Source: Gloeomargaritales cyanobacterium VI4D9
Lineage (GTDB): Bacteria > Cyanobacteriota > Cyanobacteriia > Gloeomargaritales > Gloeomargaritaceae
Assembly (NCBI GenBank): GCA_927797885.1
Contig: OV696605.1
Coordinates: 2,827,157 to 2,891,156 of the forward strand
Length of the DNA: 64,000 nucleotides
Direction: 5' to 3'
Shown here: positions 3,673-54,469 of the stretch, in pieces
How positions within the stretch are numbered: position 1 is the stretch's first letter
Layout of the letters: every line of letters begins with the position of its first letter
Made by a program: the position numbers and the translations under genes
The notes under the pieces: generated by a model
Told to the model about the DNA's origin: nothing
Seen by the model: the letters and a program-made list of their open reading frames with translations, nothing else
The model's database searches: none

Positions 3673-4721
3673 ATCTGCGCTTCTTGATAAATAAGTTTCT
3701 GTACTGCGCCCACCACCGGATTCACCTCTACCCCTCGGGTTTGGGGATGGGTTAAATGCGCCTGTTGTTCCTGCTCCATCATCAACACATCTTCCCGAAT
3801 TAAACCTTGCAGAAAACCTTTCGCTGCATTAAAACAGCGATTTTTTACCCAACGGCGAAACCAGATGGGCAAGCGATGCAAATCCCGAAATGCCCCCAAG
3901 GAAACCGTATGGATCAAATAGGCACGGGTTTGGGTGGCACTCACCGGCGCAATCAAACAATAGAGGCGAAAATCATTCCCCAGCCAGGAATGCCAATGGG
4001 GATATTCATAACGCACAATTAAGGAAGTTAAAAAGCCCCGTCGCAACCAAGGAATAAAAAGTTGAATGACCGACCAAGGGCGGTTAATTTGGAAATAACA
4101 TTCCGCCTGATATTCCGCCTCCACCCAATCAGAACCAACCCGTTTTTTCTGTAAGATTGCCTTTCCCCAGGGTTGAAAATTCCGGTGCAAATGACCGTGA
4201 TACATATCCATTAAATTTTCTACCAAAAAGGAGAAATGCGCCCGAAAATTCATCGGTGCCACACTCACCACATAATTCAAATGTTCCCACTCCGGTATCG
4301 CCAGGGGTTCCTGGTTCTGCGCCTGAGTTGGCTCGCCGGGGAACAACCAAATAAACCCATGCCGTTCCTGAACCGGGTAGTTCCGAATACGACAGGGAGG
4401 TAATTTCTGCCCTTCATGCAAATAGGGAATATCGGTACAATGCCCCGTGCCGTCAAATTTCCAACCATGATAAATACAGACAATATCATTGCCTTGTACA
4501 TAACCGCTACTCAGTTTTACCAACCGATGGGGGCAACGATTTTCCAATGCTTGAACTTGACCCTGTTGATTACGAAATAGCACAATGTCCTGATCCCAAA
4601 TTTGGATCGCCAATGGTTTTTTCCGCACTTCACTACTCAGTGCCACCGCATACCAGTGATTGAGATTAATTGCCGCTGACCGCAGGGCATCTGGCCGTGG
4701 GACACCAGCTAACTGTTCCAT
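3654..4721 (-). CDS. Rieske [2Fe-2S] oxygenase of the pheophorbide a oxygenase-like group
   Basis: The protein has 355 residues from the ATG at 4721. The open frame continues to 4826, but the extra N-terminus looks non-homologous and a GAGGAG lies about 15 nt before the chosen start. The Rieske cluster ligands are plain: CPHR and, 17 residues later, CIYHGWKF. A mononuclear-iron oxygenase domain follows, with NLMDMYHGHLHR (Asp/His ligands). The architecture matches cyanobacterial and plant PaO/Tic55/CAO-type oxygenases, which act on chlorophyll breakdown products or other aromatics; the substrate here cannot be read from sequence. No ferredoxin or reductase gene is nearby. It converges on pdhC with overlapping 3' ends. 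Confidence 0.85.
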   Translation of the reverse strand: MEQLAGVPRPDALRSAAINLNHWYAVALSSEVRKKPLAIQIWDQDIVLFRNQQGQVQALENRCPHRLVKLSSGYVQGNDIVCIYHGWKFDGTGHCTDIPYLHEGQKLPPCRIRNYPVQERHGFIWLFPGEPTQAQNQEPLAIPEWEHLNYVVSVAPMNFRAHFSFLVENLMDMYHGHLHRNFQPWGKAILQKKRVGSDWVEAEYQAECYFQINRPWSVIQLFIPWLRRGFLTSLIVRYEYPHWHSWLGNDFRLYCLIAPVSATQTRAYLIHTVSLGAFRDLHRLPIWFRRWVKNRCFNAAKGFLQGLIREDVLMMEQEQQAHLTHPQTRGVEVNPVVGAVQKLIYQEAQIHNTKD

Positions 4722-5098
4722 CGTTTTGATACAGTCACTCCTCAACAGATGCAGGATAGCATTATTATCTATCCAGATTTGAATCAATTGTACCAATATG
4801 GCAATCACACTTGAATTGTGAGGCAAATTTTATACTTAGAAAATCAAGGGTCGCAGGGTACTGCCCCGTTCTTGTTTTTAGGTGCCCTGATTATTCACAT
4901 GAGTCTTCTGGGATTGCTATAGAGGTACCCCAAAATTAGGTTCCAGCGCCTCCCGTGTGATGACTGTTTCCATATCTGGCATTGTTGATTGGTGCTATGA
5001 AATTCACGGTAGTGATGGCCAGCATCTGTTACCGGACTTTTCTAAATTAAGATTTTTGGCAAGCAATCATGCACAGATTCAGCAACCCTGCAATCCCT
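4722..5098. other. Gene-free stretch with a degenerate family A repeat
   Basis: Between 4845 and 4925 lies a decayed copy of the family A core (GGTCGCAGGG...GCCCCGTTCTTG), ending GGGATTGCTATAG. The remaining 4940-5098 carries an open frame on the plus strand that runs into the antisense of the next gene. Its first 45 residues (MMTVSISGIVDWCYE...) resemble nothing I recognise and it has no good ribosome site. I do not call a gene here. Confidence 0.5.
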
Positions 5099-5791
5099 TC
5101 ACCAAGGTATCTTTTCTGCCCAAAGCCACATCTGCGGGTGTAACCAATAAACGGCCATCACAAACACCGCCACCCCCCCATAAGCCGGACGCAGAAATTC
5201 CCGAAGCATCAGTTTTTGTTTGCCCTGGATAATGGCTAGGAACGGAATAATGGAAGTACTCGCTTTTAACGCTGGAAATGCCTCAGGATAACGAGCCGCC
5301 CAACGCCTGTCCCCATGCCACACTCCAAACAAATGATGGGCGATCAACCCTAGAGATGTGACCACCATAAAGGAACTGCCAATCCAGAGGGTATGGGCGA
5401 TACACCAGAGAATTTGCCCCACCATTTGCGGGTGCCGACAGATACGAATGATCCCCTCGGAATACAGGTGGATTTGTGGTTTTTGAATGGCACTAATTTC
5501 CCCTAAATTAAATGTGGCGGGATAAAGAAATACAAACGAAATGACCGTTAATACCAGGACACATTCCCGTACCCCCGGCACATCCTGCACCTGCCACAAC
5601 TGCACCCCATCGTAACGGTGTTTCAAGAAATAACCCAGCAGGGGCACCACCACCAACAGACTGGCACTGGCAAACAGTACCCGATAACCCCGTGCCCCCA
5701 GAAGCTTTTCCCCCCGGGGACGCAGTGCCGCCAAGCCACTATGCACCAGGGCAAACCCCAGCAACCAGCCTAAAATGATCCCGTGGGACAT
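5099..5791 (-). CDS. NnrU / 15-cis-zeta-carotene isomerase (Z-ISO)-family membrane protein
   Basis: The protein has 230 residues and several hydrophobic helices: 1-25, 40-57, 78-96, a pair around 128-158, and one near the C-terminus. The segment ICRHPQMVGQILWCIAHTLW with a following IAHHLFGVWHGDRR is typical of the NnrU/Z-ISO superfamily. Z-ISO binds heme through histidines and isomerises 9,15,9'-tri-cis-zeta-carotene in plants; bacterial NnrU members are less defined. It sits 9 bp after the protease gene in an ispG-led operon, so an isoprenoid or carotenoid role is attractive but inferred. It is last in the operon. Confidence 0.75.
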   Translation of the reverse strand: MSHGIILGWLLGFALVHSGLAALRPRGEKLLGARGYRVLFASASLLVVVPLLGYFLKHRYDGVQLWQVQDVPGVRECVLVLTVISFVFLYPATFNLGEISAIQKPQIHLYSEGIIRICRHPQMVGQILWCIAHTLWIGSSFMVVTSLGLIAHHLFGVWHGDRRWAARYPEAFPALKASTSIIPFLAIIQGKQKLMLREFLRPAYGGVAVFVMAVYWLHPQMWLWAEKIPW

Positions 5792-5800
5792 GGGTGGACG

Positions 5801-7108
5801 TTACCGAGCCGAACCCTGGCGCAGGGTATTGGTATTGCGGCGCACCAAATCCGTCAGCACATCCACCGCTCGGGCATACTGCGGGTCGGCGGGAGTGCCA
5901 ATCGCCCGGTCTTTGATGATTTTCTCCCGTTGCTCATCCGTGAGACTGATTTCCACATCCGGGACAATCCCCTCTTTGTTAATATCCTTGCCGCTGGGGG
6001 TGAGATACTTGGCAATCGTGACCGCCACCCCGGAACCATCCTGCAACTCCCGCACGGACTGAACTAGCCCTTTGCCAAAGGTTTTGGTGCCCACCAGGGT
6101 TGCTCGCCCATTGTCCTGTAATGCCCCCGCCAAAATTTCACTGGCACTGGCGGAACCCCCATCCACCAGGATCACCAACGGGCGCTCGGTCAAAGGTCGC
6201 CGGGAGGCTTCGTACCGCTCCGCTTCCCCCACCCGGGTGACGGTAGAAACGATGGTGCCTTTGTTCATCCACATCCGGGCAATGTCAATACTGGCTTGCA
6301 ATAGCCCCCCCGGATTGGAACGCAGGTCGAGGATATACCCGCTCACCCCCTGACTTTCCAGCTTGCGGATGGCTTCCCGCACATCCTGGGAGGCGTTGCC
6401 GTTGAATTGGGTCATGCGAATATAACCCACTTTGCCGGTCGGCGTTTCCCGAAGCTCATGGCGCACCGCATGGATTTCGATCCGCTCCCGCTTCAGGGTA
6501 AATTCCAGGGTTTGTTTACCCCGCTCAATCACCAAACGCACCGTCGTGCCAGGACGACCCCGGATCAGGGACACCGCCTCGTTGATGTCCATGCCCTTGG
6601 TACTCCGCCCATCAATGGAAACAATGTAATCCTGCGCCAAAATCCCCGCCCGTGCCGCCGGGGTATTTTCAATCGGGGCAATCACCACCAGGCGGTCGGT
6701 TTTCTCCTCCTGCGCCAGTTGAATCCCCACCCCCGTCAACTCCCCAGAGGTGTCCACCCGCAAATTGGCAAACTGTTGGGGGTCCATAAACCGGGTGTAG
6801 GGGTCGCCCAACTTGTCCAGCATCTCCCGGATCGCCTTGTAGGCTTCCTCCTTACTGCTGTACTCCCGGCTGAGAACCTGTTGCCGCACCTGCCGCCAAT
6901 CATTCCTATTAAACGAGGCATCCACGTAGTCCCGGTAGATGATTTGCCAAACCTCATCCACCAACTGCTTCGGACTTTCCTTCAACCCCGCCCAACTCTG
7001 TTTCCCCGCTCCGGTCGCCAGCAGTCCCGCCGCCGCCGCCGTCACCGTTGCCCCAATCGCTACCCCCCGTGCCAGTTCCAGCGACCATTTTTTTGGCATC
7101 ATAATCAT
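5801..7108 (-). CDS. Carboxyl-terminal processing protease (peptidase S41, CtpA/B/C family)
   Basis: The 435-residue protein has a hydrophobic export segment (about 10-28), an N-terminal helical part, a PDZ domain (about 105-190, with [11 protein letters not shown] and [13 protein letters not shown]) and an S41 catalytic core. The nucleophile serine is in [14 protein letters not shown] and the general-base lysine in [11 protein letters not shown]. Cyanobacterial CtpA trims the C-terminus of photosystem II protein D1 in the lumen; the paralogues CtpB and CtpC have other roles, and I cannot assign which this is. The first ATG overlaps the ispG stop as ATGA, implying translational coupling. A second possible start, MPKKW, lies three codons on. 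Confidence 0.93.
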
Positions 7109-43217: not shown

Positions 43218-44325
43218 CAGAAGTGTTGAAAGGTAGGTAAAGGCAGAAAAAGAGGGGTCAAAATATGGTATTCTAATTCATATAAACCAAAACATGAAAC
43301 AACTATGAAATTCAATTCTTTTCCCGGGATTGTCAAATTTTTACTCAAAGACCTGCCAACTAATGATTATCCAGTTCTAAATTCTCGCTTATTTTGTTCA
43401 ATCTGGTTTGCTTGCATTTTAGACAAAGGAATCAACAGTTTACGGGACTTATTTTACCAATTAAATCATGCGGGCATTAAGGTTGACTTATCCACGTTTT
43501 CTAAGGCGAACAAGACAAGAGACCCACAAATTTTTATGCATCTTTATCATAAATTATTGCATTATATTGAGGAAGCTCATCCTGAAAAGAGGTTGGTTTT
43601 ATGTCCTTTTGATGCTACCGTAATACCGCTGATGAGTAAGTTATTTTGGCTCCAAGGCTATCGCCAAGTAAAGTTAATAACCACTTTGAATCAAGATACG
43701 AAATCTACTGGTCATTTAATTGTTAGTCCTGGACAGGCACATGAGATTAATTTTGGTGAAGATATTGTGAAAATGCTACCGGAAAATGGAGTCGCAGTCG
43801 GGGATAGAGGGTTTTGCAGTCACAAAGTATTTGAACAATTTATCGAAAATGATGCCCTTTTTATTATCCGTATTAAGTCGAATTGGAAATGGGATGAAAA
43901 CTATCATATCACCACAGAACGAGGTAAGGCGAGAGTAGTTTGTTTTGGCAATGTTCAACAGAAAGTAGACTATTATTTAGCTACCAATATTCCTGAGGAT
44001 GTAATGAGTAATGAAGAGATAGGGGAAGCCTATAGACAACGCTGGGCGATAGAGGTACTATGGAAATTTCTAAAGATGAACTTAAAGCTCGATAAAATGA
44101 TGAGTAAAAATTTGAATGGAATTACCATTCAAATTTATGTAATTTTAATAGTTTACTTGATATTGCAACTGTTAAAAGTTCCACGGATGTACGGAAGTAA
44201 ATTGGCAGATAAGTTCCGATATATACAAATCTTAATACGGCAGGAGTGGAATTTTGTCCATTGGCTCAATCGGGTCGTCCCACGCCTAAATATGTAAAGT
44301 TTTATTGCAGGATTCAACACTTGTG
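43218..44325 (+). mobile_element. Complete IS4-family insertion sequence
   Basis: A 1108-bp element has termini CAGAAGTGTTGAA and TTCAACACTTGTG (13-bp inverted repeat, one mismatch), flanked by 9-bp direct repeats GGTTCAAAT (43209-43217 and 44326-44334). It encodes one intact transposase. The boundaries are independently confirmed because it splits a family C repeat. Low G+C compared with the chromosome suggests acquisition by transfer. Confidence 0.9.
43305..44297 (+). CDS. IS4-family transposase
   Basis: 330 residues with an RNase-H-like DDE core: first Asp in LCPFDATVI, second Asp in VAVGDRGF, Glu in YRQRWAIEVLWKFLK. This last block fits the IS4 signature Y-(2)-R-(3)-E-(6)-K exactly. The frame is uninterrupted, and start and stop lie inside the terminal repeats, so the element looks potentially active. 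Only one full copy is in the window; a lone terminus at 14.36 kb suggests a former second one. Confidence 0.93.
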   Translation: MKFNSFPGIVKFLLKDLPTNDYPVLNSRLFCSIWFACILDKGINSLRDLFYQLNHAGIKVDLSTFSKANKTRDPQIFMHLYHKLLHYIEEAHPEKRLVLCPFDATVIPLMSKLFWLQGYRQVKLITTLNQDTKSTGHLIVSPGQAHEINFGEDIVKMLPENGVAVGDRGFCSHKVFEQFIENDALFIIRIKSNWKWDENYHITTERGKARVVCFGNVQQKVDYYLATNIPEDVMSNEEIGEAYRQRWAIEVLWKFLKMNLKLDKMMSKNLNGITIQIYVILIVYLILQLLKVPRMYGSKLADKFRYIQILIRQEWNFVHWLNRVVPRLNM

Positions 44326-49329: not shown

Positions 49330-50238
49330 ATGGAATCTTTGGTACACGTTTACACCCCGTTGATTATCTGGACTGGGCTGGGGTTGCTGACCCAACGCTG
49401 GTTGCCGGAATTATTCCCGCAGATATTGGGGCGCACCTTGTACTGGGTGGGGGTGCCGGTGCAGATTTTTGCCCTGGTACGGCATACGAACTTTCAGGGG
49501 TTGGTGTGGGTGGTGCCCCTGCTGACCTTGGCGGTGTTGGGGATCAACCTGGGGGTGACCTGGGGGGGCTTGCGTTGGTGTGCGCAACCCTTGACGGCGG
49601 CGCAACAGGGCAGTGTGGTGTTGGCAGGCACCCTGGTCAATACGGGGTTTATCGGCTTGGGGGTGGTGCCGGGGCTGGTTGACCCGGAAGCGTGGGGCTG
49701 GGTGGTCAGCTACAGTTTGACCAATAATGTGCTGGGCACCTATGGGATTGGGGTGCTGGTGGCGGGGTATTTTGGGGCGCAACAAACTCCAGAGGGCTAT
49801 AACTGGCAAAAAGTCCTGCTGGTGCCGAGCCTGTGGGCATTTGCGCTCAGTTATGGTTGCCGTTCCCTGCCGTTTCCCCCCTGGCTGGAATGGGGTTTGG
49901 ATCAGGCGGTGCCGGTGGTGATCAGTGCGGCTTTTGTCCTCACGGGCTGGCGGTTGTATCAACTGGGGTTTAACCGGGGCTGGCATTTGGCAGGACTGCC
50001 GACTTTGGTGCGGATTGTGGTCATGCCCCTGCTGGTGGGTGTGGGGTTGACCCTGTTGGGTCTGCGGGGGGAGCAACGGCTGGCGCTGGTGCTGATGGCG
50101 GGGATGCCGACGGCGATGGCGACCCTGATTTTGGCGGAGGAACATCAATTGAATCGGGACATTATGGCCGCCACCATTGCCCTGTCCACCCTGGGCATTT
50201 TGTTCCTAATTCCCCTGTGGTTGTGGTGTTTTCCCTAG
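49330..50238 (+). CDS. AEC-family (auxin efflux carrier-like) permease
   Basis: The 302-residue protein has ten hydrophobic helices in two halves, with the family's LAGTLVNTGFIGLGVVPGLV in helix 4-5 and LALVLMAGMPTAMATLILAE near the end. AEC members export or import organic acids or other small metabolites; some relate structurally to bile-acid carriers. The substrate is unknown. It converges with the glycosyltransferase gene, overlapping by 33 bp. Confidence 0.85.
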   Translation: MESLVHVYTPLIIWTGLGLLTQRWLPELFPQILGRTLYWVGVPVQIFALVRHTNFQGLVWVVPLLTLAVLGINLGVTWGGLRWCAQPLTAAQQGSVVLAGTLVNTGFIGLGVVPGLVDPEAWGWVVSYSLTNNVLGTYGIGVLVAGYFGAQQTPEGYNWQKVLLVPSLWAFALSYGCRSLPFPPWLEWGLDQAVPVVISAAFVLTGWRLYQLGFNRGWHLAGLPTLVRIVVMPLLVGVGLTLLGLRGEQRLALVLMAGMPTAMATLILAEEHQLNRDIMAATIALSTLGILFLIPLWLWCFP

Positions 50239-52515
50239 GGGAGTTGCCCCATGCCCCACCTTGCTCAGCCCGTGGATGGTTTTTTCCCAATAAAATGGCT
50301 TGGTAAAGAGTTGCCAAAGTGCCATATAAGAGGCGGCTGAATGGAGCAACCAATAAATGGGATTTAAGAGCGCATAGAGGGTGAGATTATAATATTTGCG
50401 GCGAAATACGGCGATCATATTCAGGTAAATGCCAATGCTATTGCCTAGGATTAAATTAAACAAAGAAATATACAACATCCAGCCGGGAAAAAGTTGTTCC
50501 AACCAAGGGGCACGGGAAATAGCGGCATAGATAAAAAATAACCACAAAATGGGATTGCTTAAAAAACAAACAATCGTGCCGCCGATAAAAAATTGATAGG
50601 CTAACCAGTTTCCCAAGCCTAGGGTTTTCAGGGATTTCCAGGGGTCACGGTTATGCACCAGCCACGTTTGCATATACCCTTTGATCCAACGGGAACGCTG
50701 GCGAATCCAATTTTTTAACCGACAATTGGCCTCCTCATAGGTCGTGGAGTCAATCACCCCCACCCGATAGCCTCGCTGGCTGGCACGAATGCCCAAATCC
50801 GCATCCTCCGTGACATTAAACGGGTCCCAGCCCCCCAATTCCAACAAACGATCCGTGCGGAAATGATTGCTGGTTCCCCCCAAGGGAATGGGCAGACGCA
50901 AACTATCTAAACCGGGTAACAAATAATCAAACCAGTAGGAATATTCCAGGGTAAACATCCGGGTTAAAAAATTCTCGTCCCGGTTGAAATAATTCAACGC
51001 CGCCTGCACACAAACCAGATCGGGAGGGCCATGTCGAAAGGCCAAAATGGCTTTTTTCAATTGGTCAGGATCGGGAATGTCCTCCGCATCGTAAATCGTC
51101 AGATATTCCCCTTGGGCAAACGCCAAACCGTAATTACAGGCTTTGGGTTTGGTCTTGGGTTTACTATCGGGAATGTAAATAAAACGGATGTAATGGGGGG
51201 GATGGGCAGCCTTGGCGGCTTCAATCGTTACCCGGTCTTTTTCTTCTAAAAGTAAGAGTACATCTAGCTTTTCGTGGGGATAGTCCAACTGTCCTAAACC
51301 CTTGATCAGCATAGACACAATTTCCGGTTCATTATACACAGGTACTAAGATGGTGTAGATGGGCAATTCATCATCTCTGAGACTGGCAATTTCCGCCGGT
51401 TCCGCATAATGTTTCCGATCCACCGCCCCCACCAAACTCAAGAGCATTTTGAAGCCAATGGCGGTCACATAAAATAAATTGACAATAGACATCACCAGGG
51501 AAAGGGTAAACGCAGTGTGATTCAACAGTCCCCACAAAAACAGCACCAACAGGACATAGATGCACAAAATCTGTATGGGGGTAAAGACCTGGGTTGCGGA
51601 TTCCCTGGGGGAACGAGCCGCCAACCGATACACCGCCTGCCAACTAAATAACTGGCGAAAGACCCCATCAATAAGGTAGGTAATATCGCTCTCTGTGCCG
51701 AGAACTTTGGTGATTTCAACTCCCGGAAATTGTTTGTGAATTTGACTATCTACCCGCATATCCAAGGGGTCTTGCACCATCACTAAAAGCGTGTATTCAT
51801 CCAGATGATGTAGGGGAATAAATAACCGATTGGTCATGAGCTTGGGATCAAACTGGCGGACGAGATGCTCATCCATTGACCAGAGGGGGGTGCCGATCAA
51901 ATTGGAATAGGAAGGACACCCGGTTAAATCCACTAAAATATGAAGCAGTTTTTGGGGTTTGATATGGTTCAAACGGGTGAGAATTTGACCAATGGGCGAA
52001 CCAGTCCGGCGGTAAATTTCTAAAATATCTTGCCACTGTTGTGTAGTAATTGCTCCCGATTGAACTAACTGTTTCCCCAGGTTTAACTGCACCACTAATC
52101 GGGTGATTTCGACACTGGTAGCCAACAGGGGAACAAAATTAATCCGAGGCCAGATGTGTTGCACAATTGACCTGGCGTGTTCATAACTGCGTTCCGTGAC
52201 GGCCAGCACCAGGGTATGGGCATCCTGCCAAGCACAGGGGAAGACTTCGGCGTGACTCCAATAGGCAGGGGGGCGAATCCGGGCAATCCCCAAATCCAAC
52301 CGATGCTTTTGCTGAACCAACCAATGTTTCAGTAATTCCACCTGGTTGACTTGGGACAATACGGTAATATACTGATTTTCGTTCATAATGCTCAATTCTT
52401 TCAGAGCCACCCCCAAACTGCAACCCTTTTGTTGCTGGTACGAACGAACTTGTGGGAGTTGATCAGGAGTGAGATAACCCCTTTGCATCAGCCAGGTCGG
52501 GTCGAAGGAAAACAC
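50206..52515 (-). CDS. Processive GT2 glycosyltransferase with two N-terminal GspE/MshEN-type domains
   Basis: 769 residues. Residues 1-143 and 145-290 each look like a GspE N-terminal (T2SSE_N/MshEN) domain; the second is clearest (LGKQLVQSGAITTQQWQDIL, then TGSPIGQILTRLNHI and PLHHLDEYTLLVMVQDPLD). MshEN domains are established c-di-GMP sensors. Two membrane helices (about 312-360) precede a GT2 core: TILVPVYNEPEIV, YDAED (475-479), NVTEDADLG and QRSRW, the D/DxD/TED/QxxRW set of processive synthases. Four or five further helices follow. It starts 4 bp after the BcsB-like gene, so the pair should form one membrane polysaccharide synthase. Confidence 0.85.
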   Translation of the reverse strand: MFSFDPTWLMQRGYLTPDQLPQVRSYQQQKGCSLGVALKELSIMNENQYITVLSQVNQVELLKHWLVQQKHRLDLGIARIRPPAYWSHAEVFPCAWQDAHTLVLAVTERSYEHARSIVQHIWPRINFVPLLATSVEITRLVVQLNLGKQLVQSGAITTQQWQDILEIYRRTGSPIGQILTRLNHIKPQKLLHILVDLTGCPSYSNLIGTPLWSMDEHLVRQFDPKLMTNRLFIPLHHLDEYTLLVMVQDPLDMRVDSQIHKQFPGVEITKVLGTESDITYLIDGVFRQLFSWQAVYRLAARSPRESATQVFTPIQILCIYVLLVLFLWGLLNHTAFTLSLVMSIVNLFYVTAIGFKMLLSLVGAVDRKHYAEPAEIASLRDDELPIYTILVPVYNEPEIVSMLIKGLGQLDYPHEKLDVLLLLEEKDRVTIEAAKAAHPPHYIRFIYIPDSKPKTKPKACNYGLAFAQGEYLTIYDAEDIPDPDQLKKAILAFRHGPPDLVCVQAALNYFNRDENFLTRMFTLEYSYWFDYLLPGLDSLRLPIPLGGTSNHFRTDRLLELGGWDPFNVTEDADLGIRASQRGYRVGVIDSTTYEEANCRLKNWIRQRSRWIKGYMQTWLVHNRDPWKSLKTLGLGNWLAYQFFIGGTIVCFLSNPILWLFFIYAAISRAPWLEQLFPGWMLYISLFNLILGNSIGIYLNMIAVFRRKYYNLTLYALLNPIYWLLHSAASYMALWQLFTKPFYWEKTIHGLSKVGHGATPLGKTPQPQGN

Positions 52516-52519
52516 GGTT

Positions 52520-54469
52520 TCAAGGAGCGGGGGGGGTAGGGGCTTGGGCTTGGCGACCTAACCGCTGGTACAATCGCCAGGCAACGATGCCGCCAATGAC
52601 TAAAAATAATCCCAACAGCACCCAGCGATAGCGGCGCAGGAGTAACCACCAATTTAGCTCATCGGGATAGCGCACCTGCAAGGTCTGGCCGCTCAAATCC
52701 CACACATCAAAACTATATAGGGGGGTAACGGTAGCTACATTGCCCTGCAATTGATTCACCAAACCCGCCACCGGGTCGGCCAAAACTTCCCCCATGTAGG
52801 TCGCCACCTGAGATTGATCCCCCCACCAGGACAGCCAGAGGGTGGGAACGCCCTGATGGAAAAACGCCTGCAACACCCCGATACTGGCCGTCGGTTGCGC
52901 TTGGAGTTCAATTTTTTGGTTCATGGGGTTAATAATTTCAAAGGTTTGTCCCAACCGGATGGGGCTATTGAGGGGCACCCCCGCTGTTGTCCCTAACAAC
53001 CGCCACTGGGGACGCTGGGGCAAATTTCCCCAATTCTTTACCTCGGTAGTGGGCACCAATTCCGGCAGTAAAGGTCGCCCCCCACTACGGCTGAGCATTC
53101 CCAACACCTGCGCTGTCCCCGCCACCAGAGCCGGATTCTCCACATCCACCACCACCTGCCCCTTACCCAAAAAGTCCTGGGGTACATCATCGAAATTGCC
53201 CTGGGGACGTTGATACCCGTTCCAATCCAAGTAGGAACTGCCCAACACCTGCACTGACACCGGACGGGGGGAGCGGCAATCCCGTTGCGCCACCGTGAAC
53301 ACCACATCCAGATTATTAGTGCGCTGGAGACGGACATCCGGCAACGCCAAGGTGGTATTCAGTTGGGTCTGGGTGCCGACATTGAAACTATTGATAAACG
53401 TGCCGTTGAAAAAAATCTGGGCACTCAACGCCCCGCTATCATCCTTGCTCATTTGGGTAAAGCGAGACCGTAACGCTAGGGATAAATCCTGGGGGCGACC
53501 CCCCAACTGCGCCAAATCAAACGTCAGCCGGAAACTCTGGTTCCCCAAACCAGTCTTCGCCGTCTCGTTCCAGCCCAATTCGCTAAACAACCGCCGATCC
53601 CGCAACCGCTGGGGTTCCGCCGGGTCAGAGCTAAGAACTTCTACCCCCGGTGCCATAAACGCTGGTTCCGCCTGCGCCAAGGACTGCACCACCTGGGGTT
53701 GCGCCCGCACCCGTAGAATGTTCCCCTGCCGTTGGATATTGGGCGCTTTTTCGTCCTGGTGCAACACCACAGCGGCTTCCGTATCAGGATTTAACCCGAG
53801 GGATGCTAAATTGCCCCGATACCAAGTAATCGGCACCCGGGAATCCCGAAACCGATAACTCAACAGACTAAACAGCCACAACGCCGCTTGTGTAGCAGTT
53901 GCATCCATTTGTTCCGGCACCGCCAGCACCACCTGGTCATAGGTCGGGCGAAACCAATAATTCACCGGCGTATCCGCTTCCGTTTGCACCAACCGGAAAA
54001 AACTCTCTTCCCCCACCGTCAAAAACAAATTTCCCGAAGCCGCATCATCACAAAAATCCTCAGAAATTTGCAAAAAACTTTCCAACCCTACGAAGAGAAA
54101 CCGTTCCCCCGGCGGCGGTAATTGGAGCGGAATTTTCACACTTTTTTGGGGCAATAAATCCTTCACCTGGATCACCCGCACCGGGCGACCATTCAAGGAA
54201 ATCCGCACCGTAGAACTGGGTTTGAGTACCGGGGAAGGCGCCAGTTCCAACTGCACAAAACTCTGCTTCGTATCCAGATTCCTGCCAAACAGGGGAATAC
54301 TCACCCCAAATTCAGGACTTGCTCCCCGCAACACCACCGGGCGGGTATAGCCCAGATTGCGAAAGGGAATGGTTTGCACCGTGCGCTTGGGTTGGCTCCA
54401 CCCTGGCAGGATTCCCAGCACCAGCCACCCGCATCCAATTCCGAGACCCCAGCACCAACGGCTCATCAC
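52520..54469 (-). CDS. BcsB-like periplasmic subunit of an exopolysaccharide synthase
   Basis: 649 residues. N-terminal signal (to about GWSQ, residue 26), then a long beta-rich periplasmic part with the BcsB pattern: FRNLGYTRPVVLRGASPEFGV split into short strands, STVRISLNGRPVRVIQV, and a later DLSLALRSRFTQM carbohydrate-binding-like repeat. A single C-terminal membrane helix (about 612-632) ends in a basic tail. BcsB guides the nascent glycan from the BcsA synthase through the periplasm. No bcsC, bcsZ or bcsA with a PilZ domain is present. It is translationally close to the GT2 fusion gene. Confidence 0.8.
   Translation of the reverse strand: MMSRWCWGLGIGCGWLVLGILPGWSQPKRTVQTIPFRNLGYTRPVVLRGASPEFGVSIPLFGRNLDTKQSFVQLELAPSPVLKPSSTVRISLNGRPVRVIQVKDLLPQKSVKIPLQLPPPGERFLFVGLESFLQISEDFCDDAASGNLFLTVGEESFFRLVQTEADTPVNYWFRPTYDQVVLAVPEQMDATATQAALWLFSLLSYRFRDSRVPITWYRGNLASLGLNPDTEAAVVLHQDEKAPNIQRQGNILRVRAQPQVVQSLAQAEPAFMAPGVEVLSSDPAEPQRLRDRRLFSELGWNETAKTGLGNQSFRLTFDLAQLGGRPQDLSLALRSRFTQMSKDDSGALSAQIFFNGTFINSFNVGTQTQLNTTLALPDVRLQRTNNLDVVFTVAQRDCRSPRPVSVQVLGSSYLDWNGYQRPQGNFDDVPQDFLGKGQVVVDVENPALVAGTAQVLGMLSRSGGRPLLPELVPTTEVKNWGNLPQRPQWRLLGTTAGVPLNSPIRLGQTFEIINPMNQKIELQAQPTASIGVLQAFFHQGVPTLWLSWWGDQSQVATYMGEVLADPVAGLVNQLQGNVATVTPLYSFDVWDLSGQTLQVRYPDELNWWLLLRRYRWVLLGLFLVIGGIVAWRLYQRLGRQAQAPTPPAP

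Follow-up and report, generated by a model that had tools for sequence, protein, structure and literature searches.

A BcsB-linked glycosyltransferase of a Gloeomargaritales cyanobacterium carries two N-terminal MshEN domains with degenerate c-di-GMP contact motifs

Does the possession of MshEN domains by a glycan synthase imply that the enzyme is controlled by c-di-GMP? This question is raised by two adjacent genes in the window analysed here, a stretch of 64,000 nucleotides in the 3.16-Mb chromosome of the cyanobacterium Gloeomargaritales VI4D9. The first-pass annotation described a gene for a BcsB-like periplasmic subunit located 4 bp ahead of a gene for a GT2 enzyme with two tandem MshEN domains at its N-terminus, and proposed that the pair may constitute a distinct c-di-GMP-controlled glycan system. 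Both genes were identified as minus-strand ORFs in this arrangement (Table 1), and the closest named relative found in a GTDB genome scan was Gloeomargarita sp. SKYG116, the GT of which is 75% identical. We consider it reasonably probable (about 60%) that the pair encodes an exopolysaccharide synthase of BcsAB-like type, in which the two MshEN domains now operate without binding c-di-GMP in the canonical way.

Table 1. Positions of the gene pair and its predicted domains in the window.
Feature	Position	Strand	Size or residues	Basis or remarks
BcsB-like periplasmic subunit	52520..54469	minus	649 aa	ORF, PF03170, AF2 model
Spacer between the bcsB-like and GT2 genes	52516..52519	minus	4 bp	ORF list
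MshEN-MshEN-GT2 glycan synthase (predicted)	50206..52515	minus	769 aa, GTG start	ORFs, profiles, model
MshEN copy 1	52102..52506	minus	residues 4-138	6/14 contact positions kept
MshEN copy 2	51646..52101	minus	residues 139-290	7/14 contact positions kept
Membrane helices and GT-A core, BcsA-like	50266..51588	minus	residues 310-750	profiles, model
GT2 catalytic domain	50677..51363	minus	residues 385-613	DAED 476-479, TED 569-571, Q606-R607-W610

The GT2 enzyme matches PF13632, PF13641 and PF00535 and contains the motifs DAED, TED and QRSRW; DAED, TED and Q-R-x-x-W are invariant across 46 relatives. In its structural model (mean pLDDT 86.5), two repeats at the N-terminus precede a pair of membrane helices, after which come a GT-A domain and several further membrane helices. 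The core of the model is closest to BcsA (E. coli, Z 30.0, 402 aligned; Rhodobacter, Z 25.9; VIA), and the presence of the acidic, TED and QxxRW motifs together with the BcsA fold places it with BcsA. No PilZ domain was detected in the enzyme by the Pfam scan, and the model ends after the membrane helices, in agreement with the earlier description of a GT2 enzyme lacking PilZ. The enzyme reached neither the CelA equivalog TIGR03030 (79.3 bits against a cut-off of 699.1) nor the NfrB equivalog NF008411 (27.5 of 1170 bits, from the MshEN part only). The 3' end of its gene overlaps a convergent membrane transport gene (49330-50238, plus strand) by 33 bp (window 50206-50238).

The BcsB-like protein matches PF03170 (67 bits in the Pfam scan) and consists of a hydrophobic N-terminal helix, a BcsB fold and a C-terminal membrane helix (residues 615-638). 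Its AF2 model (pLDDT 83.9) corresponds over nearly the full length to E. coli BcsB (Foldseek 7.8e-31; Z 23.2, 518 aligned, VIA). It is assigned to BcsB by the profile match and the full-length fold, and falls short of the BcsB equivalog cut-off. A BcsB-like gene lies upstream in the same order in 69 of the 82 loci compared, and 8 of the other 13 are located at contig ends. In one cyanobacterial MAG (L007), this gene is split into two ORFs (3779-4843 and 4909-5868) by a frameshift or an assembly error.

The pair and BcsA-BcsB are thus alike in the fold of the GT2 core, in the catalytic motifs and in having a BcsB partner encoded next door, whereas identity is about 18%, the CelA and BcsB equivalog cut-offs are not reached, an extra third component (described below) is present, and the PilZ domain at the C-terminus of BcsA is replaced by MshEN at the N-terminus. 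A divergent cyanobacterial cellulose synthase making ordinary cellulose would account for BcsA and BcsB being the best structural matches of the core and its partner and for the 79 bits obtained with TIGR03030. However, this score is far under the CelA cut-off of 699 bits, the GT2 enzyme has no PilZ, a PilZ-bearing GT2 gene is present in the same genome separately from the pair, and GDP-mannose genes adjoin the loci of relatives, so that we regard a cellulose product as improbable.

Two N-terminal MshEN domains are indeed present. The second copy was detected by PF05157 (38.7-47.5 bits, above the cut-off). NF053729 gave 60 bits for the whole protein and 37.8 bits, against a cut-off of 38, for copy 2 alone. 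Copy 1 alone scores below the cut-off in both (28.6 bits with NF053729 and 12.5 bits with PF05157), but a profile-profile comparison with the MshEN of the family yielded a probability of 98.7% over 130 columns, by which a chance match was rejected. Because the model also displays an identical order of helices and strands in two repeats (about residues 7-131 and 134-272), the earlier claim of two tandem domains holds. In comparisons with the two closest relatives, to which the calculation was restricted because distant pairs are saturated, dN/dS was 0.14-0.31 for copy 1, 0.06-0.19 for copy 2 and near 0.04 for the core. These values, well below 1, are incompatible with free decay of the MshEN copies and show that both copies are maintained.

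The motifs of these domains were scored at 14 c-di-GMP-contact positions, taken from PMC5013675, in which MshEN fusions to glycosyltransferases are also stated in general terms. By this measure, MshE scores 14, and the three GSPII domains of PilF score 12 (GSPII-B), 10 (GSPII-C) and 8 (GSPII-A); GSPII-B and GSPII-C bind c-di-GMP and GSPII-A does not (PMC12002112). Neither window copy contains the paired 24-residue motifs (RLG ... G ... L...L..Q), and both score below the non-binder GSPII-A (Table 1). In a gap-free alignment of copy 2 with the solved MshE domain 5htl, N-L-G occupies the position of the first RLG and P-I-G that of the second, and L25, Q32, G47 and Q61 (MshE numbering) are replaced by W, Y, N and L, respectively. 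Both motif glutamines and both arginines are therefore gone, while L10, G11, G18, L29, G40, L54 and L58 are retained; PilF GSPII-C lacks G40 and is still a binder. All eight cyanobacterial rows of the alignment are degenerate at both copies. Because both copies score below GSPII-A, canonical c-di-GMP binding by either of them is unlikely, although copy 2, given the residues that it keeps, may have weak or altered nucleotide binding.

The earlier proposal that the pair is controlled by c-di-GMP through its MshEN domains is accordingly not supported by the alignment, in which most of the c-di-GMP-contacting residues are absent from both copies, and the reading of the locus is corrected in that the presence of MshEN alone does not amount to c-di-GMP control. 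It is conceivable that one or both copies still bind c-di-GMP through contacts outside the consensus and in this way gate the GT2 core: relatives have near-intact motifs, GSPII-C binds with only 10 of the 14 positions (PMC12002112), diguanylate cyclase domains are encoded in the genome, and the leucine and glycine of the first RLG are preserved in copy 2. We consider this explanation unlikely, though the least so of the alternatives weighed here, in view of scores lower than that of a known non-binder, the loss of both glutamines and both arginines from copy 2, and the degeneration of both copies in eight of eight cyanobacterial rows. Degeneration of the c-di-GMP contact positions is also seen in the MshEN domain of PilB (L001) from the same genome.

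Among known systems, NfrB, the synthase of the N4 glycan receptor of E. coli, likewise combines GT2 and MshEN within one membrane protein (PMC8669469, PMC8669472), and in Achromobacter the gene cluster of nfrA, nfrB and wecB also includes a BcsB homologue (PMC8669472). As the first-pass annotation had suspected, the domain order differs, being GT-MshEN in NfrB (PMC8669469) and MshEN-GT in the window protein, and within the latter it is only the MshEN part that is matched by the NfrB model. NfrB has retained the motif, binds c-di-GMP with a Kd of 1 uM and requires this binding for its function (PMC8669469, PMC8669472). Thermus thermophilus PilF also has tandem MshEN/GSPII domains, one of which has lost c-di-GMP binding (PMC12002112, PMC11731258), but these form part of a fusion with a pilus ATPase, and c-di-GMP is still bound by two of the three, whereas neither copy of the window pair looks able to bind it. 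XcsA/Tll0007 is, like the window enzyme, a cyanobacterial GT2 exopolysaccharide synthase, but it is controlled by PilZ and has an HlyD-type partner and no BcsB (PMC5871770, PMC12430437).

The GTDB genome scan identified 335 relatives, the best 80 of which were examined. Outside the cyanobacteria, homology spans residues ~145-752, corresponding to one MshEN and the core, with 45-54% identity. Relatives were found in Aquificota, Chloroflexota, Thermomicrobiota, Deinococcota, Bacillota, Synergistota, Atribacterota, Thermodesulfobacteriota, Myxococcota, Ignavibacteriota, Bacteroidota and others. More than ten phyla thus have an MshEN-GT2 gene behind a BcsB gene, in most cases with a single MshEN, and the fusion order is not confined to the window. 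The eight cyanobacterial two-MshEN rows form one clade in the tree (support 100/100), and a full-length GT match is rare among cyanobacteria (3 of 194 sampled genomes). In a further sample of Chloroflexota (L108-L112), the GT2 proteins are 1,281-1,364 aa long and have three to six MshEN matches before the core, with at least one copy in each array keeping 10-12 of the 14 positions; one or two genes for the third component and a BcsB gene lie downstream. Because of these arrays, tandem MshEN ahead of GT2 is a recurrent arrangement and not peculiar to the window. No description of a module consisting of BcsB and an N-terminal MshEN-GT2 was found in the open-access literature searched. The term 'distinct system' is apt in a broader sense than was proposed, for a widespread module with a third conserved component and a link to GDP-mannose; c-di-GMP control is not supported for the window protein.

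The motif score of single-MshEN relatives outside the Bacteroidota-side branch is usually 10-13, suggesting that many relatives are probably c-di-GMP-responsive. GGDEF domains are encoded in 42 of 48 GT-bearing genomes. Ten genomes of Bacteroidota, Ignavibacteriota and Kryptonia have none or one weak GGDEF match, and their MshEN domains are the most degenerate (scores 2-6). This pattern of GGDEF and motif fits a c-di-GMP role in other lineages. A tie between motif loss and missing diguanylate cyclases is not claimed as independent evidence, since the ten genomes represent one branch of the tree and about one event. In cyanobacteria, the motif has been lost and GGDEF proteins have been kept (the window genome has six strong GGDEF matches, none inside the window), and two Chloroflexota genomes (L019 and L020) exhibit the opposite pattern, an intact motif with a weak GGDEF match or none.

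A third gene, encoding a polytopic protein of ~500 aa rich in hydrophobic segments, is located directly behind the GT gene in 67 of the 82 loci. In some Chloroflexota, this protein is fused to the GT core in single ORFs without an MshEN match (L118 5794-9183 and L119 4189-7644). The window genome encodes it elsewhere (G000:C1:2450548-2452107; HMM match 3.7e-73), it was found in eight of eight GT-bearing cyanobacteria tested, and among 194 sampled cyanobacterial genomes, the three that have the GT are exactly the three that have the third component. Taken together, neighbourhood, fusion and co-occurrence in the genomes indicate that the third protein is a component of the synthase machine. It has no match in Pfam, NCBIfam or PDB. 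A polytopic partner of no known family would also suit a GT2 enzyme that, instead of polymerising, transfers a single sugar or a small number of them either to a lipid or to a substrate that this membrane protein handles, and among the fold matches of the GT2 model, the archaeal mannosyltransferase PcManGT ranks second (Z 27.8). The TED and QRSRW motifs are, however, typical of processive enzymes, and a dedicated BcsB partner is present; we judge a non-polymerase to be the least probable of the explanations considered.

Genes for GDP-mannose synthesis (ManC or a stand-alone cupin part) adjoin 11 of the 82 loci, in about seven lineages. They are often located just upstream of bcsB, as in L004 and L005 (cyanobacteria; directly upstream), L008 and L040 (Bacillota) and L027 (Synergistota), and such a gene is also present in two of three additional Bacillota loci that were sampled later. 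At a density of one to three such genes per 3 Mb, the seven independent cases found in 0.74 Mb of flanking sequence far exceed chance. Because polysaccharide clusters attract GDP-mannose genes in general, this neighbourhood is taken as a hint that GDP-mannose is the donor sugar and a mannose polymer the product. In the window genome, no GDP-mannose gene lies beside the pair; one was found far away and unlinked.

Under the preferred reading of a BcsAB-like synthase with a c-di-GMP-independent MshEN pair, and by analogy with BcsAB, the GT2 protein would polymerise a nucleotide sugar, perhaps GDP-mannose, on the cytosolic side of the inner membrane, the growing chain would be threaded through its own membrane helices, and the BcsB-like protein would receive the chain on the periplasmic side. 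The third polytopic protein, encoded elsewhere in the genome, would be part of this machine. The N-terminal MshEN of many relatives probably binds c-di-GMP and would gate the enzyme in the manner of PilZ in BcsA. For the cyanobacterial branch, given that both copies are without canonical contacts, they would most likely be structural or protein-binding modules with control exerted from elsewhere, and judging from the sequences the window enzyme is most likely free of c-di-GMP control. As points against this reading, copy 2 keeps half of the contact positions, the organism has six strong GGDEF matches, no GDP-mannose gene adjoins the pair, and BcsB partners may serve other polymers as well.

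More tentatively, and with less than even confidence, we propose that a BcsB-like protein, an MshEN-array GT2 and a polytopic third subunit form a widespread three-component class making a mannose-based extracellular polymer. In this class, a number of MshEN domains ranging from none to about six would provide a c-di-GMP input, and on two separate occasions, in Gloeomargarita-type cyanobacteria and in the Bacteroidota/Ignavibacteriota branch, this input would have become c-di-GMP-independent with the domain kept. Such a class would add to one- and two-membrane bacteria a broad group of synthases in which a BcsAB-like enzyme is gated by MshEN rather than by PilZ. Its members differ in the number of sensor copies, from about six to none, and in the state of the motifs, from intact to lost, a natural series in which the gating of a glycan synthase by a c-di-GMP domain, and the role of such a domain that has ceased to bind, can be tested directly.

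Several accessory genes accompany these loci. In two-membrane phyla, a gene for a protein of 260-280 aa is often situated between bcsB and the GT gene (23 loci); its signal-like start and beta-rich look suggest that the product could be an outer-membrane pore. Eight loci, mainly of Aquificota (L010 9271-10323 and relatives), have a gene for a protein of 334-386 aa with a signal-like start after the third component, which could be a glycan-active enzyme. Neither the 260-aa nor the 350-aa type has a Pfam match. In nearly all Mucilaginibacter and Pedobacter loci (L056, L059-L082, L075), the gene directly upstream of bcsB encodes a histidine kinase; the MshEN motif is lost there, and a two-component system may have taken over control. 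Finally, the window contains, at 43218-44325, a 1,108-bp insertion sequence that encodes a DDE transposase. A 99.9% identical copy (L097 404-1511; near 102 kb in G000) ends the PilZ-bearing, cellulose synthase-like GT2 gene of the same genome near the end of its PilZ domain, with the last ~57 codons of that gene being derived from the insertion.
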